In this document: piece after piece, positions 1,142 through 7,543 of the stretch
Numbering within the stretch: position 1 is the stretch's first letter
Layout of the letters: every line of letters begins with the position of its first letter
NCBI GenBank assembly: GCA_027019165.1
Contig: JALUXC010000012.1
Location: 186,001 to 250,000, forward strand
Reading direction: 5' to 3'
Length of the DNA stretch: 64,000 nt
From: Pseudophaeobacter sp.
Lineage (GTDB): Bacteria; Pseudomonadota; Alphaproteobacteria; Rhodobacterales; Rhodobacteraceae
The notes under the pieces: generated by a model
Told to the model about the DNA's origin: nothing
Database searches by the model: none
What the model saw: the letters and a program-made list of their open reading frames with translations, nothing else
Made by a program: the position numbers and the translations under genes

Positions 1142-1525
1142 GTCCGGTCTCCGGTATTGGCTGGCCTGCTGGCGTGGTGTTCTGGCGTTCATGTTCTATC
1201 TCTCAACCGAGCTCTCAGGACAAGAGCAGCTCGCCGGGATGGGAAACGATTCGGGTTCGAAATCCGGGCTTTTAGGATCGTTTTGCGTCTTTGTGGATAT
1301 CTACCTTGAGTTGAGGTGATTGCCTGTGCAATACTGCGCGTGTGGATAACCGTGCGAACAAGGTGTGTATGGGTTTAAATCACTGAAATATAACAAAATT
1401 ATGTGGAAAGAAGTTCATGTTGCGAGTGCGAAAAAAGCAACCTGAAATTGCAGTTTCTTGTTTTCGTGTCCGGTTCTGCCGTGCCAGCGTTTTGGGGCAA
1501 TCAAGCAAAAACGTTGGAGGGTTCC
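1142..1525. other. Intergenic region upstream of the repeat-peptide gene
   Basis: This 384-base gap separates xth (minus) from the repeat-peptide gene (plus). The part from about 1320 to 1500 is clearly richer in A+T than the flanks, as expected of a promoter. A weak sigma70-like pair can be drawn at 1306-1311 (TTGAGT) and 1329-1334 (CAATAC) with a 17-base spacer, but I do not trust it strongly. A GGAGG ribosome-binding site at 1516-1520 lies five bases before the ATG at 1526. No other gene is convincing here. Confidence 0.4.
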
Positions 1526-1885
1526 ATGACTGCATTGCTCAAGAAAAATTTCACGTCTTCCACTTCGGCCCATGCCGAGATCGCCGCATCTGCCGACCTG
1601 TTTGGCGGGCAGGGCGTCGAGATGTTCTCCTCTGGGTCCGCGCCGACCTGCGACCTTCTGGGCGGCGGCGGGGCCGAGATGTTCAGCTCCGGCTCTGCCC
1701 CCCGCAGCGCCGACACCGCATCAGGAGAGGCTGTTTCGCTGTTCTCTTCGGGCTCCGCGCCCGTGGCAGCTGGCTGCCAGTCGAGCGGCGTTCTGACAGA
1801 GCTGTTCTCTTCCGGCTCGGCGCCGCGTGCCGAGGCGCGCCGCGAGCAGGGCGAGGCGACCGGCCTGTTCTCCTCGGGCAGCTAA
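1526..1885 (+). CDS. Repeat peptide with five FSSGSA(P) units; candidate precursor or display peptide
   Basis: A 119-residue protein of unknown function. After a short leader-like segment (MTALLKKNF, then Ser/Thr/Ala-rich to about residue 22) come five units of 19-21 residues. Each ends in hydrophobic-Phe-Ser-Ser-Gly-Ser, and the first four continue Ala-Pro. Phe lies at residues 34, 53, 73, 94 and 114, and the last unit stops at FSSGS just before the stop codon. The spacers are Ala/Gly/acidic and poorly conserved, so selection is on the FSSGSAP core. There is no signal peptide or membrane helix. The start at 1526 has GGAGG five bases upstream. The following helical protein and EamA transporter genes lie on the same strand. 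I recall, unverified, that databases label such proteins only as a DUF (perhaps DUF6749). The design fits a multi-core peptide precursor, but that is inference. Confidence 0.8.
   Translation: MTALLKKNFTSSTSAHAEIAASADLFGGQGVEMFSSGSAPTCDLLGGGGAEMFSSGSAPRSADTASGEAVSLFSSGSAPVAAGCQSSGVLTELFSSGSAPRAEARREQGEATGLFSSGS
1625..1882 (+). repeat. Five coding repeats of the FSSGSAP motif, about 60-bp period
   Basis: The repeat cores begin at 1625, 1682, 1742, 1805 and 1865, a spacing of 57, 60, 63 and 60 bases, always a multiple of three. The nucleotide sequences of the cores differ at synonymous positions (TCC, TCT, TCG and AGC serine codons, and different glycine codons). The repeats are therefore old and kept at the protein level rather than being a recent DNA slippage product. 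Confidence 0.85.
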
Positions 1886-2036: not shown

Positions 2037-3146
2037 ATGACAGGCAGTACCACCGCGCAGCTTCTGGCTTTTCCCAAGAATCGCATTCGCGCCGCGGCCC
2101 TGGCGCCGTCAGAGGGACCTGCCAATCTTTGCGCAAGTTTCGCCACCGCCCGCCAGGATCCGCAAAGCGTGTTCTGGCTCAAGGAAAACGCCGAACTGTT
2201 GAACATTCTGGAATGTACCGGTACCCCTGTGCGTGGCGGCGCTTTGGCGCCTTATGCGGACTACTACGACACGGTCGAGCGGCGGATGAGTTTCTTTCGT
2301 CCCTACTATCGCTTTATCCTGTCGATCTGTCTTGACCTTGAGGATCTGGGCCATTCTACGGCAAACAAGGGGGAGGCTTTGGCACATTGGGTCAAGGCGC
2401 AGGGTTTGCCTGAGGGGGAGCTGTCTGATCTGCAACGCGCCGAGGCGCGGCGACTGCTGGCGCGCCGGGGCGTCCATATCGAACAGCCCGGGCTGGATGA
2501 CCGTTTGCGTGGTTTCACGGAGCAGTCGCATCACTTTGCGCTACCAAACAAGAAGATCGGCTATGAGCTGACACATATTGTTTTTTACCTGTCGGAATAT
2601 GGGCGCCGCGATCCGGGTTTGTCGCGCGCCGCGCTCAGGAGCCTTGAATATCTGGGGTTGGTTTCGTTCCTCGATCAGGATGCGGATCTTTTGGCGGAGG
2701 TGGCCATTGCCCTGGCCTATGCGGGCGCCGAGGTGCCGCAGGTCTGGCAGGACTGGCTTGACTGTCAACTGAACAGTTTTGAAGTGACCGAGGGCGGCTT
2801 TGCCGGGCAGCAGGACGACTATCACACCTATTTCGTCGGCAACTGGTGGCAGGGCGTCTCCCGCGGGAGTGGGTTTTCGCGCAGCCTGCCACCGGGCGCG
2901 ACGCTCTTGAGCAAGCCGCTTGGGGATGGCGTCTTGCGCAGCCTGTCGGGCGCGCTTTTTGAGGCACAGCCTCAGAGGTTTGCCGATTGGGATGTGGCAA
3001 AGCGGCGGTTGCAGGACAGGTTGCCCCCGGCACAAATGGCAGTCTTGGAACAAGCAGAGGTCAGCTCAAAGGACTTTGGCGCCTTCTACGCGCTTTTTGC
3101 GCGCAGTGACTCCTCTGGCTCTGTTCGGCAGGGAGGGTGCCCATGA
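2037..3146 (+). CDS. Helical protein of unknown function, partner of the repeat peptide
   Basis: A 369-residue cytoplasmic protein with no signal peptide or membrane segment. I recognise no catalytic motif. It looks mostly alpha-helical, with aromatic patches (RMSFFRPYYRF near residues 90-100, ELTHIVFYLSEYGRRDP near 180-200, DDYHTYFVGNWW near 260-275). Conserved-looking His, Tyr and Trp residues in these patches could line a binding or active site. The ATG at 2037 follows AGGGGG eight bases upstream; longer in-frame extensions read through the upstream gap and lack a ribosome site. Its stop overlaps the start of the transporter gene (ATGA at 3143-3146), so the two are translationally coupled. 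I recall, unverified, the label DUF6902 for such Rhodobacteraceae proteins. A role in processing or using the FSSGSAP peptide is only guilt by association. Confidence 0.75.
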   Translation: MTGSTTAQLLAFPKNRIRAAALAPSEGPANLCASFATARQDPQSVFWLKENAELLNILECTGTPVRGGALAPYADYYDTVERRMSFFRPYYRFILSICLDLEDLGHSTANKGEALAHWVKAQGLPEGELSDLQRAEARRLLARRGVHIEQPGLDDRLRGFTEQSHHFALPNKKIGYELTHIVFYLSEYGRRDPGLSRAALRSLEYLGLVSFLDQDADLLAEVAIALAYAGAEVPQVWQDWLDCQLNSFEVTEGGFAGQQDDYHTYFVGNWWQGVSRGSGFSRSLPPGATLLSKPLGDGVLRSLSGALFEAQPQRFADWDVAKRRLQDRLPPAQMAVLEQAEVSSKDFGAFYALFARSDSSGSVRQGGCP

Positions 3147-4078
3147 GGTCGTCGTCTCAGGCCCTGAGCGGCGCGCTCCTCGTGGTGATCTACACCGGTT
3201 TCATTGCCTCGGCAGATGGCATCACCAAGCTGCTGGCCGGAGGCTATGCGCCGGCGCAGCTCTATGCGCTGTCCGGCGCCCTGGTGGCTGCCCTTTGTGC
3301 CATGAGCTGCATTTTGGCTGCGCGCGGTGCATCGCCGATGGGCGCGGCGCTGGTGCAAGGGTTGCGGACGGATTGCCGCTGGGCCATGGCGCTGCGCTCT
3401 GCTGCGACGGTCCTCGCGGCGGTTTGTTTCTTCTATGCCTTCCGCCTTTTGCCCTTTGCAGAGGTGTTTGTCTTCATCGGTCTGATGCCGCTCTTGGCGG
3501 GGCTGATGTCAGGACCAATTCTGGGAGAGCGGGTGCGGGCAGTGGCCTGGGTGGCGTTGGGGGTCGGGTTCGCAGGAGTGATCTGCGTTTTTCCCGGCGG
3601 GGTTGCCGCGCTGTCCGGTGGGCATGGTGTGGCGCTGGCCGCCTCGGTTCTGGGCACCCTGTCGATCACCCTGTCGCGCTACATCGGGCGTTATGAAAGC
3701 AATGTGCTGGCGCAGGTCTTCTACCCCAACCTGGCGCTTTGTCTGACGATGCTGCCGGTGTTGCCTTTTGTCTGGCAGCCGATGCCGCTGCACGATGTGG
3801 CCTGGGCGATCACCTATGCGGCAGCCTTGTTCGGAGCGCGCTGGTTATTGGTCGCGGCGCTGCGCCTGATGCCGTCTTATGCTGTGACGCCGCTGATGAA
3901 CCTGCAGTTCGTCTGGATGGTGGCCATCGGCGCCCTGGTCTTTGGTGAAGCCGTGCGCCCCGAAGCCTGGGCCGGTGCAGCCGCGATCATGGCTTCTGGT
4001 CTCTATCTGGTCTTTGACCAGTTCGGTCTTGGCCGCACGGTGTTGGGCCGGGGGCGCTTCCCGCAGACCGACCTCTGA
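3143..4078 (+). CDS. EamA/DMT-family transporter linked to the repeat-peptide cluster
   Basis: A 311-residue inner-membrane protein with about ten hydrophobic helices in two EamA halves, the drug/metabolite transporter fold. Family members usually export small metabolites or amino acids. The ATG at 3143 is preceded by GGGAGG (3131-3136) and overlaps the upstream stop by four bases. A GTG six bases earlier is a poorer choice because it coincides with the ribosome site. Coupling to the unknown helical protein suggests a shared pathway, perhaps export of a product, but peptide export by DMT proteins would be unusual. The substrate is unknown. Confidence 0.85.
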   Translation: MRSSSQALSGALLVVIYTGFIASADGITKLLAGGYAPAQLYALSGALVAALCAMSCILAARGASPMGAALVQGLRTDCRWAMALRSAATVLAAVCFFYAFRLLPFAEVFVFIGLMPLLAGLMSGPILGERVRAVAWVALGVGFAGVICVFPGGVAALSGGHGVALAASVLGTLSITLSRYIGRYESNVLAQVFYPNLALCLTMLPVLPFVWQPMPLHDVAWAITYAAALFGARWLLVAALRLMPSYAVTPLMNLQFVWMVAIGALVFGEAVRPEAWAGAAAIMASGLYLVFDQFGLGRTVLGRGRFPQTDL

Positions 4079-4542: not shown

Positions 4543-5697
4543 ATGAATGCACCTTTTGCCACGATGCCGGAAAAAAGCCGCGGTCGCCTCGTCGCTGAAG
4601 AAGAAAGCTACTTCCGCTCTCCTTTCCAGAGGGACCGTGATCGTATCATCCATGCCAGCGCGTTTCGCCGCCTCAAACACAAGACCCAGGTTTTTGTGGA
4701 ACATGAGGGCGACAACTATCGCACCCGCCTGACCCATTCCATCGAGGTGGCGCAGGTGGCCCGTACCATCGCAGGCGCTCTTGGCCTCAATCAGGAACTG
4801 ACCGAGGCGGTGGCGCTGGCGCATGACCTTGGGCACACACCCTTTGGCCACACGGGCGAGGACGCCCTTCATGCGCTGATGGGGCCGTATGGCGGCTTTG
4901 ACCACAACGCTCAGGCGATCCGCATCGTGACGAACCTAGAGCGCCACTATGCCAATTTTGACGGGCTGAACCTCACCTGGGAAACGCTGGAGGCGATTGC
5001 CAAGCACAACGGCCCCGTGACAGGAAAGCTGCCCTGGGCCCTGGCTGAATTCAACGGCAAGATGGATCTTGAGCTGCACACCCACGCCAGCGCCGAGGCG
5101 CAGGTGGCGGCCCTGGCCGATGATATTGCCTATAACAACCACGATCTGCACGACGGTTTGCGCGCGGGCCTTTTCACCGACGCCGAGGTGGCGCGGCTGC
5201 CCATCGTAGGTTCAGCCTATCGTGATGTGGACCTGCGCTATCCGGGCCTAGAGAAGAACCGCCGCCGTCACGAGGCTCTGCGCCGTGTCTTTGGCGTCAT
5301 GGTCGAGGATGTAATCGAAACCTCGCGTGGGCGCCTTGCCGAAAGCGGGGTTCGGTCGGTCGAGGATGTCCGCGCTTTGGATGCGCCGGTGATTGCCTTT
5401 TCTGACGGGCTATGGCTGGATCTGCAGGATATCCGGTCCTTCCTGTTCCAGCGCATGTACCGGGCGCCAAAGGTGATGGAAAAGCGTGCCGAGGTCTCCC
5501 GCGTGGTCGAAGCCCTGTTTCCGTATTTTCTGGAAAATCCAATGGAGATGCCGGAACGGTGGCACCCGGAGATCCGCATGGCCCAGGGTAAGATCGCGAT
5601 GGCACGGCTGGTGTCGGACTATATCGCCGGGATGACCGATCGCTTTGCGCTGCAATTGCACGATACGCTCATTCTCGGCCGCGCTCCGTCGTCCTGA
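4543..5697 (+). CDS. dgt: Deoxyguanosinetriphosphate triphosphohydrolase-like HD protein
   Basis: A 384-residue HD-domain dNTP triphosphohydrolase that cleaves dNTPs to deoxynucleoside and triphosphate. The metal ligands are visible: His65 in RLTHS, His94-Asp95 in AHDLGHTPFGH and the later Asp in LADDIAYNNHDL. The FRRLKHKTQVF segment near residue 41 is typical of the family. The shorter length than the E. coli enzyme fits the type-2 (dGTPase-like) group common in alphaproteobacteria. It is followed by argS after 100 bases in the same direction. Confidence 0.93.
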   Translation: MNAPFATMPEKSRGRLVAEEESYFRSPFQRDRDRIIHASAFRRLKHKTQVFVEHEGDNYRTRLTHSIEVAQVARTIAGALGLNQELTEAVALAHDLGHTPFGHTGEDALHALMGPYGGFDHNAQAIRIVTNLERHYANFDGLNLTWETLEAIAKHNGPVTGKLPWALAEFNGKMDLELHTHASAEAQVAALADDIAYNNHDLHDGLRAGLFTDAEVARLPIVGSAYRDVDLRYPGLEKNRRRHEALRRVFGVMVEDVIETSRGRLAESGVRSVEDVRALDAPVIAFSDGLWLDLQDIRSFLFQRMYRAPKVMEKRAEVSRVVEALFPYFLENPMEMPERWHPEIRMAQGKIAMARLVSDYIAGMTDRFALQLHDTLILGRAPSS

Positions 5698-5797
5698 TCC
5701 GCAGTCTGGGCGGCCTGTTGGCCGTTTGGAGGCGTGATTTGGTTGACCGTCGGCGCGGGCGTGGGTATCCGCTAGGCAAACCAATAGGACGCCCGAT

Positions 5798-7543
5798 ATG
5801 AACCTCTTCACCGATATTCGCTCGCTCGTGATCGACAGCCTTGCGGCCCTGACCGCCGAAGGCGTGCTGCCCGAGGGGCTTTCCTTTGACAATGTCGCGG
5901 TAGAGCCGCCGCGTGATCCCTTGCATGGGGATATGGCCACCAATGCGGCGATGGTTCTGGCCAAACCGGCCAAGGCAAAGCCACGCGACATCGCGGAGGC
6001 GCTGGCGGCCCATCTGGCAAAGGACGACCGAGTTACCTCGGCCGAGGTGGCTGGTCCCGGCTTTCTGAACCTTCGTCTGGCCGATGGCGTCTGGCAGGGC
6101 GTGCTGGCGTCGGTGCTGAAGGATGGTCTGGCCTATGGTCGCTCGGACATGGGCGCGGGCAAGCGGGTCAATGTGGAATATGTCTCGGCCAACCCGACCG
6201 GCCCCTTGCATGTAGGGCACACGCGCGGCGCGGTCTTTGGCGATGCCTTGGCCTCGCTGCTGGCCTATGCGGGCTATGACGTCACCCGCGAATACTACAT
6301 CAACGATGGCGGCGGGCAGGTCGATGTTCTGGCCCGCTCTGTCTACCTGCGGTATCTTGAGGCGCACGGGCAGGAGGTCGCCTTTGAGGAAGGCACATAC
6401 CCCGGCGATTACCTGATCGAAGTGGGCGAGGCGCTGAAGGCCAAGGTGGGCGATGCCTATGTCGGCAAGGGCGAAGAGCTCTGGCTGGAAGAGGTACGCA
6501 ACTTTGCCACCGATGCGATGATGGATCTGATCCGTGCGGATCTGAAACTGCTCGGCATCGAAATGGATGTCTTCTTTTCCGAGAAATCCCTCTACGGCAC
6601 AGGCCGGATCGAGGCGGCGCTGGAAAGCCTTGATGCCAAGGGGCTGATTTATCAGGGCGTGCTTGAGCCGCCAAAAGGTAAAAAACCCGATGACTGGGAG
6701 CCGCGCGAGCAGACCCTGTTCAAATCGACCGAACATGGTGATGACGTGGACCGCCCGGTCAAGAAATCGGACGGCGCCTGGACCTATTTCGCGCCGGATA
6801 TCGCTTATCACTACGACAAGGTGAGCCGCGGCTTTGACATGCTGATCGACATCTTTGGCGCCGACCACGGCGGCTATGTCAAACGGATGAAGGCGGCGGT
6901 CTCGGCCCTGTCGGACGGCAAGGTGCCGCTTGATATCAAACTCTGCCAGCTGGTGAAGCTGTTCAAGGACGGAGAGGAATTCAAGATGTCCAAACGGGCA
7001 GGGACCTTTGTGACCCTGCGCGATGTGGTCGAAGCCGTCGGCCCGGATGTCACCCGTTTCATGCTGCTGACCCGCAAGAACGATCAGGGCTTTGACTTTG
7101 ATCTCGACAAGGCGCTGGAGCAGTCCAAGGACAACCCGGTCTTTTACGTGCAATACGCCAATGCCCGGATCTGTTCGACCCTGCGCAAAGCGGCAGAGGC
7201 CGGGATCGCCTGCGATGAGGCCACACTCAAGGGCGCGGATCTTTCTTTGTTGACGGCCTCGGCGCAGCAGGCGGTTGCGCGCAAGCTGGCAGAATGGCCG
7301 CGTCTGGTGGAGATCGCCGCGCGCAGCAACGAGCCGCATCGGATCGCCTTTTACCTCTATGATCTGGCCTCGGATCTGCACGGATTGTACCACCTCGGCA
7401 AAAGTGACAAAAGTTTACGATTTGTTAATGAGAGCAGCCAATCGGCAACACATGCCAATTTGGCGCTGGCACAAGCCGTTTCCATTGTCATTTCCGCAGG
7501 TCTTGGTATTCTAGGCGTGACCCCGGCGGAAGAGATGCGATAA
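5798..7543 (+). CDS. argS: Arginyl-tRNA synthetase
   Basis: A 581-residue class I aminoacyl-tRNA synthetase charging tRNA-Arg. The N-terminal Add-1 domain is followed by the HIGH-type motif HVGH at residues 138-141 within [15 protein letters not shown], and a KMSK motif ([10 protein letters not shown]) is present in the second half. The C-terminal helical domain binds the anticodon ([11 protein letters not shown] at the end). The length is normal. The SPOR, nagZ and scp genes follow in the same direction, an order common in Rhodobacteraceae. Confidence 0.96.

Follow-up and report, generated by a model that had tools for sequence, protein, structure and literature searches.

What is the repeat protein with five FSSGS motifs made for, and does a neighboring gene act on it? 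The window, that is, the whole stretch of 64,000 nucleotides analyzed here, encodes such a protein directly upstream of a gene for a DUF6902 protein. We consider it likely that the repeat protein is a multi-core RiPP precursor whose cores are changed by the DUF6902 protein; epimerization is the reaction that we favor, at about even odds, and it may be followed by cleavage and possibly by export through an EamA-family permease. The proposal that DUF6902 acts on a multi-core precursor draws on the linkage of the two genes, their co-occurrence, the variation of the cores next to a retained lead-in, and their joint loss. Three features expected of a multi-core precursor were found: repeated cores that are mostly uniform, an adjoining putative enzyme gene, and a conserved putative recognition stretch beside a variable core.

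The repeat gene and its surroundings

The window precursor reads MTALLKKN...LFSSGS, and a single unit of it is GQGVEMFSSGSAP. The earlier note had placed five cores at Phe residues 34, 53, 73, 94, and 114; the first four positions held, and the fifth Phe is residue 115. Its description of the repeat was otherwise accurate: the cores are spaced by 19, 20, 21, and 21 residues (19-21 had been stated), each Phe follows a hydrophobic residue (M, M, L, L, L), the serine codons differ between the five cores, and the polypeptide ends at the fifth core, where FSSGS meets the stop codon. The spacer, which had been called acidic, is mildly so in the window (net charge of the whole protein, -5) and more clearly so in relatives (GDAVEM, GEGTQM). 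A start of the type M-x-A-x-x-K is frequent among relatives (59 precursors, with starts chosen partly by that pattern).

Table 1. Coordinates of the features of the window and of the DUF6895 loci used for comparison
Feature	Position	Strand	Remarks
Ribosome-binding-like site GGAGGG	1516-1521	+	4 nt 5' of ATG; sequence
Multi-core precursor (putative)	1526-1885	+	119 aa + stop; sequence and relatives
N-terminal leader, about 27 aa, starts MTALLK	1526-1606	+	Putative leader end
Core 1, FSSGS-AP	1625-1645	+	Residues 34-40
Core 2, FSSGS-AP	1682-1702	+	Phe 53
Core 3, FSSGS-AP	1742-1762	+	Phe 73
Core 4, FSSGS-AP	1805-1825	+	Phe 94
Core 5, FSSGS	1868-1885	+	Phe 115; stop codon directly after
DUF6902 protein, putative core-modifying enzyme	2037-3146	+	369 aa; Pfam PF21843, E 1.2e-132
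Signature Y176-x-L-T-H180-x-x-F-Y184	2562-2588	+	Kept in 137 to 143 of 143 enzymes
D217-L-L-A-E221	2685-2699	+	D217 in 141/143, E221 in 142/143
Y262-H263	2820-2825	+	H263 in 141 of 142 enzymes holding that part
EamA-family permease, putative exporter	3143-4078	+	PF00892, E 5.7e-14
Short peptide gene/DUF6895 gene, L216	7593-7850/7881-8885		
Short peptide gene/DUF6895 gene, L217	7907-8338/6422-7855		
Short peptide gene/DUF6895 gene, L218	7425-7910/7983-9188		
Short peptide gene/DUF6895 gene, L219	6852-7088/5611-6738		

Among 200,000 residue shuffles of the window precursor, the maximum was two FSSGS copies, reached in three shuffles. Selection on the core at the protein level, as proposed earlier, was supported by four same-genus precursors, in which pN/pS was 0.045 in the cores versus 0.465 elsewhere. 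The cores of these precursors showed zero amino acid replacements and many synonymous differences, and the non-zero core value arises from TCN/AGY serine paths. The predicted structure of the window precursor is disordered (AF2 mean pLDDT of 46.8), and inspection by eye revealed no signal peptide or membrane segment. Nothing scored above the Pfam cut-off for the window precursor, and seven relative precursors likewise had no match above it, apart from CRAM_rpt just above the cut-off on the repeat of L117, which was taken as a repeat artefact. NCBIfam had no match for the window precursor or the DUF6902 protein, and Rfam returned nothing between positions 1100 and 4500 of the window.

The EamA gene starts in overlap with the DUF6902 stop codon (ATGA); the earlier note had overlooked both this gene and the DUF6902 partner. 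The four neighbors scanned at the window encode an exonuclease-type protein, DUF6902, EamA, and an Fe-S protein, with no lasso peptidase or macrocyclase among them. In many relatives, the precursor/DUF6902 pair lies between an exonuclease III-type gene and an Fe-S assembly/dGTPase/ArgRS block (names assigned partly by eye), and no lasso cluster was recognized by eye among the relatives' neighbors. Within the conserved neighbor clusters, named by eye, neither a peptidase beside the pair nor a further maturation gene was recognized. The nearest named genome to the window locus is Phaeobacter sp. QD34_24.

Linkage with DUF6902 and concerted change of the cores

Searching PF21843 within this alphaproteobacterial family located DUF6902 in 82 of 295 genomes; as each genus is represented once, this corresponds to about 28% of the genera sampled. 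None of 14 control genomes had it. Loci were collected from 80 of the other 81 DUF6902-positive genomes (the contig fragment G158 was omitted) and supplemented with 80 named loci, the best 80 of 384 relatives found with the enzyme as query; with the window, these 161 loci yielded 143 with distinct enzymes. A repeat ORF was present 5' of DUF6902 in 140 of the 143, detected by script in 134 and by eye in six (L049, L063, L080, L113, L119, and L197). The distance between the two genes ranged from 13 to 491 nt with a median of 64 in the 134 loci, and in 129 of these it fell within 30-170 nt. At L069 the sequence is masked by Ns, and the genome has a precursor profile match just upstream of the enzyme; at L103 and L120, no repeat was recognizable beside DUF6902.

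A profile built from 25 precursors (E <= 1e-6) matched 74 of the 82 DUF6902-positive and 0 of the 213 negative genomes (lists compared by eye), counts that come from related genomes and are thus not independent. The eight positives lacking a profile match comprise five with divergent repeats (L104 MMCCS, L106 MMSCS, L113 TTSC, L117 SPSC, and L119 YIAGL), the two without a repeat, and G158, whose locus was left out. A precursor-only search for related loci confirmed 0 relatives among 489 pattern matches. Plasmids yielded no DUF6902 or DUF6895 relative. When 289 genomes of the class and 398 of the phylum were searched for DUF6895, no DUF6902-type protein was recognized outside the family. By six-frame HMM scan, EamA lies directly 3' of DUF6902 in 103 of 141 distinct loci and is missing in 38; it is therefore a frequent and not an obligatory companion.

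Two variations in this arrangement were seen. Upstream of position 5001 in L116 (G217), two candidate precursor ORFs precede one DUF6902 gene, one with FTSGS-type cores and the other with FGSSC cores. Precursors with STSSF cores, a composition shifted from the F-x-S type, stand beside DUF6902-type genes in L222 (4726-5202 and 3611-4720; also with an EamA gene) and in L221 (from 3233).

As the earlier note had suggested checking, repeat number varies among homologs, from 2 to 20 copies per precursor in 134 loci. The minimum of two copies occurs in at least five precursors (L097, L104, L106, L113, and L119); the script's frame for the window counts six, including a chance FVSGS upstream of the start. 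Unit spacing was 20 or 21 residues in 724 of 793 cases and exactly 8 in 34 of 793, the latter from nine loci; the count excludes the window, L185, and L196, where frames or core calls were out of register. The exact tandem units of eight residues (TALFTSGS, VQMFTSGL, and VELFSSCS) represent the shortest spacing seen. L184 contains seven exact eight-residue steps of TALFTSGS at 2579-2968, the shortest repeat unit observed, and this unit therefore sets an upper limit on recognition stretch plus core.

When units were aligned on Phe, Gly at -6 was the majority residue in 108 of 109 loci, Asp or Glu at -5 in 102, Met, Leu, or Ala at -1 in 105, Ser at +2 in 104, and Pro at +6 in 99. Within a locus, positions +1, +3, and +4 hardly vary, and they have the same majority residue in only 42-57% of locus pairs. 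The lead-in G[DE]xx[EQ][MLA], with [VT] at -3, thus persists across species while the core varies: 43 distinct dominant core pentapeptides occur in 140 loci (22 of the 143 labels were set by hand; two labeled 'none' and L069, which was guessed, fall outside the 43). Some of the core uniformity within a locus follows from the selection of copies, which required four or more of five matches, and the uniformity is not absolute, since L136 and L157 mix two core types within one precursor. L136 has FTSGS with FTTSA (5156-5866), and L157 has FSTSC flanked by FSSGS (5470-5880). This mixture suggests more than one product per precursor. The stop codon directly follows core position +4 in 100 of 134 loci; Trp-type cores (FTSWSGP and similar) have a short tail after the core in 14 of 15.

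The earlier note had named homologs that keep the spacers and lose FSSGSAP as evidence against its reading. Such homologs do exist in the literal sense, but their cores are replaced uniformly, which favors a product-coding core. FSSGSAP as the conserved element could not be upheld: the core changes in concert across genera, and it is the lead-in that persists instead. For the eight cores with at least four loci, 23 changes were counted on the enzyme tree (built by a quick method, with 54 of 139 inner branches open) versus a mean of 45.6 for shuffled labels; the cores are thus only loosely tied to descent and change frequently. L046 and L128 illustrate such a switch: their enzymes are near-identical and their spacers alignable, with FTSGS in 7/7 units of the former versus FSSGS in 6/6 units of the latter. 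In the last unit of each (GERTEM), a single base separates the two cores (ACT/TCT); L046 uses ACG for Thr in 6/7 units, and third bases vary in L128. From these codon patterns in the sequences, both short-range homogenization and point change may keep the copies alike.

The DUF6902 protein and its DUF6895 kin

The window DUF6902 protein matched PF21843 with 442.6 bits (cut-off 27) over profile positions 16-351 of 351. Its residues 36-233 also matched DUF6895 (PF21836; E 1.5e-22, 80.8 bits versus a cut-off of 23.8), and the DUF6895 profile matched 60 of 61 DUF6902 proteins. One DUF6895 member has been reported, according to the title of the article, as a lasso-peptide epimerase (Shi et al., ACS Catal 2026, via PMC13352647).

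His180, Tyr184, and Asp217 are each present in 141 of 143 DUF6902 enzymes and Tyr176 in 140. Only L103 and L120 lost the first three residues, and these are the two loci without a recognizable repeat; the chance of a coincidence between His180 loss and absence of the repeat is about 1 in 10,000, uncorrected for relatedness and choice of position. The L103 enzyme (G307) also lost Y176, but it is not generally decayed (450.8 bits) and keeps G189, E221, Y262, and H263; a precursor at this locus might have diverged beyond recognition. The L120 enzyme (G058), at 129 bits, diverges strongly and lacks His263 as well. Both are natural altered copies of DUF6902, useful as negative controls.

The AF2 model of DUF6902 is almost wholly helical, with a mean pLDDT of 91.2. 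Using VIA, residues 23-281 or thereabouts were found to align with alpha/alpha toroids at Z 9.4-12.5 among the 50 matches listed, the best value, 12.5, being in the range that the tool calls common for helical folds. The resemblance of the predicted model to alpha/alpha toroids is suggestive and not proof. Foldseek gave no match at E <= 0.001, and its top rows (complement C4dg, GH154) had low TM-scores; a search of solved structures by sequence gave no match up to E 5. No LanC entry was among the 50 VIA matches listed, which excludes nothing; LanC-like closure was set aside, as most cores lack Cys.

DUF6895 matches (E <= 1e-5) were found in 11 of 398 phylum genomes, with G674, G745, and G897 outside the family, and in 7 of 289 class genomes, four of them above the cut-off; G027 comes from the class search, and G331, G350, and G455 had matches below the curated cut-off. 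Y176, H180, D217, E221, Y262, and H263 are present in 4/4 DUF6895 proteins compared, and Y184 in 3/4. At each of the four loci examined, which come from other proteobacterial families (L216, L217, L218, and L219), a short same-strand ORF lies 5' of the DUF6895 enzyme. These ORFs have a leader-like helix LxxxxI[IV][ND], with GI in three, and a Trp-containing core (GPWFVL, GPWYIY, DWTFVS, or NAWAFIV), in two units in L217 and L218. No lasso genes were recognized by eye at the four loci, and NCBIfam had nothing for three of the DUF6895 enzymes and their peptides. Both enzyme families therefore travel with peptide genes, of different kinds, and judging from sequence, the DUF6895-linked peptides look like a second, different precursor family for the enzyme superfamily. 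A truncated DUF6895-like frame in L220 (about 4900-5600; G261, 38.9 bits) keeps the Thr-His and ends before the Tyr-His; the DUF6895 motif scan reported nothing for G261, and the frame is perhaps a remnant.

Proposed pathway, alternatives, and known systems

In the pathway that we propose, a short leader would be followed by tandem units, each with the recognition stretch G-[DE]-x-x-[EQ]-[MLA] and a five-residue core F-x-S-x-x, often with A/G-P after it. The DUF6902 protein would bind the units and change each core; precursor and DUF6902 very probably form an enzyme/substrate pair. One core residue may be inverted to the D-form by an acid/base pair including the candidates His180 and His263, with Tyr176, Tyr184, and Asp217 as further candidate catalytic residues. 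Epimerization is the reaction that we favor, by analogy, because DUF6902 is kin to DUF6895, and we give it about an even chance. Cleavage would fall to a peptidase not recognized beside the pair and would take place behind core position +4, the point at which the last core meets the stop; we give cleavage at this site about an even chance. The short peptides might leave through the EamA permease, a step for which we would give slightly less than an even chance.

That DUF6902 performs other chemistry on the cores, such as cyclization, dehydration, or formation of a bond from Ser, Thr, or Cys to a neighbor, is rather unlikely, although these three residues are abundant at core positions +1, +2, and +4 and alpha/alpha toroids include proteins of quite different functions. 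The core lacks Cys in 120 of 140 labeled loci, FSSGS included, so that lanthionine-type closure is impossible at those loci, and the conserved neighbor clusters contain no further maturation gene recognizable by eye. We also judge it unlikely that the repeat protein is modified and never cut, remaining an intact polymer, e.g., a multivalent binder or scaffold. The lack of a recognizable peptidase gene among the conserved neighbor clusters would fit such a polymer, and the spacers of 8 to 21 residues could serve as linkers; however, the concerted core switching between sister species and the stop directly after core +4 in 100/134 loci are the traces expected of a cut product, and uniform cores would matter less to an intact polymer.

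Pearlin-type pathways build a small molecule on the C-terminus of a scaffold peptide and then release it, and EamA permeases usually move small metabolites. A scaffold of this kind would account for a C-terminus placed exactly at a core and for the downstream permease, but internal core copies would be pointless, no pearlin-type peptide ligase was recognized by eye among the conserved neighbors, and the nearby arginyl-tRNA synthetase looks like housekeeping; we consider this explanation very unlikely. A surface, adhesion, or display repeat protein, with DUF6902 as a chaperone or an unrelated neighbor, is hardly credible. Tandem repeats of variable copy number are compatible with it, and the earlier note had offered it beside the precursor reading; it loses ground through the missing signal peptide and membrane segment, the predicted disorder, the enzyme-like neighbor, the absence of the precursor from all 213 DUF6902-negative genomes, and its loss jointly with the DUF6902 signature residues. 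The multi-core layout proposed in the same note gains from the closely linked DUF6902 gene, the variable repeat number, and the disordered prediction.

Taken further, the multi-core precursor pathway might constitute a new RiPP class in roseobacters and their relatives, an extension that we put forward tentatively and with more doubt than confidence. A toroid DUF6902 epimerase would, without a partner protein, act on the 2 to 20 near-identical pentapeptide cores of a disordered precursor and invert a single residue per core. Many copies of a short, species-specific D-peptide would result, EamA-exported in most species, with the system passed on largely by descent. Between sister species, the core can change in all units at once; a signal or weapon peculiar to each species would be expected to behave in this way, and the concerted switching makes the question of who reads the peptide directly testable. 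If the proposal is true, about 28% of the sampled family genera have in common a peptide pathway that has not been studied; with only two or three genes, it could be rebuilt in E. coli in one experiment. DUF6902 would then have a first function, the DUF6895 epimerases would reach beyond lasso peptides to multi-core precursors, and the 43 core sequences would offer a natural series for testing enzyme tolerance.

Both multi-core RiPP precursors and peptide epimerases have precedents. A literature term search, whose coverage excludes most subscription journals, returned no mention of DUF6902 or these core motifs. MslH has a metallophosphoesterase fold. It is a lasso-peptide epimerase that acts on a residue of a ribosomal precursor and is reported as metal-dependent (PMC10406935); by analogy, it offers a model for what DUF6902 may do. 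The DUF6902 model has an alpha/alpha toroid arrangement similar to that of class II terpene cyclases, prenyltransferase beta subunits, and complement C3d, with 7-14% identity, and the fold shows no function. Microviridins are closed by ATP-grasp ligases, whereas DUF6902 resembles an alpha/alpha toroid and the core here has about five residues. As in the multi-core microviridin precursors (PMC5934393), several cores per precursor would be served by one enzyme. There is also a likeness to the DUF6895 lasso epimerase: four DUF6895 proteins and DUF6902 have in common Y-x-[LI]-[TS]-H-x-x-F-[YF]-x-x-[DE]-[YF]-G and Y-H, but DUF6902 forms a separate Pfam family, its putative precursor is multi-core, and the window neighbors scanned include no lasso peptidase or cyclase.
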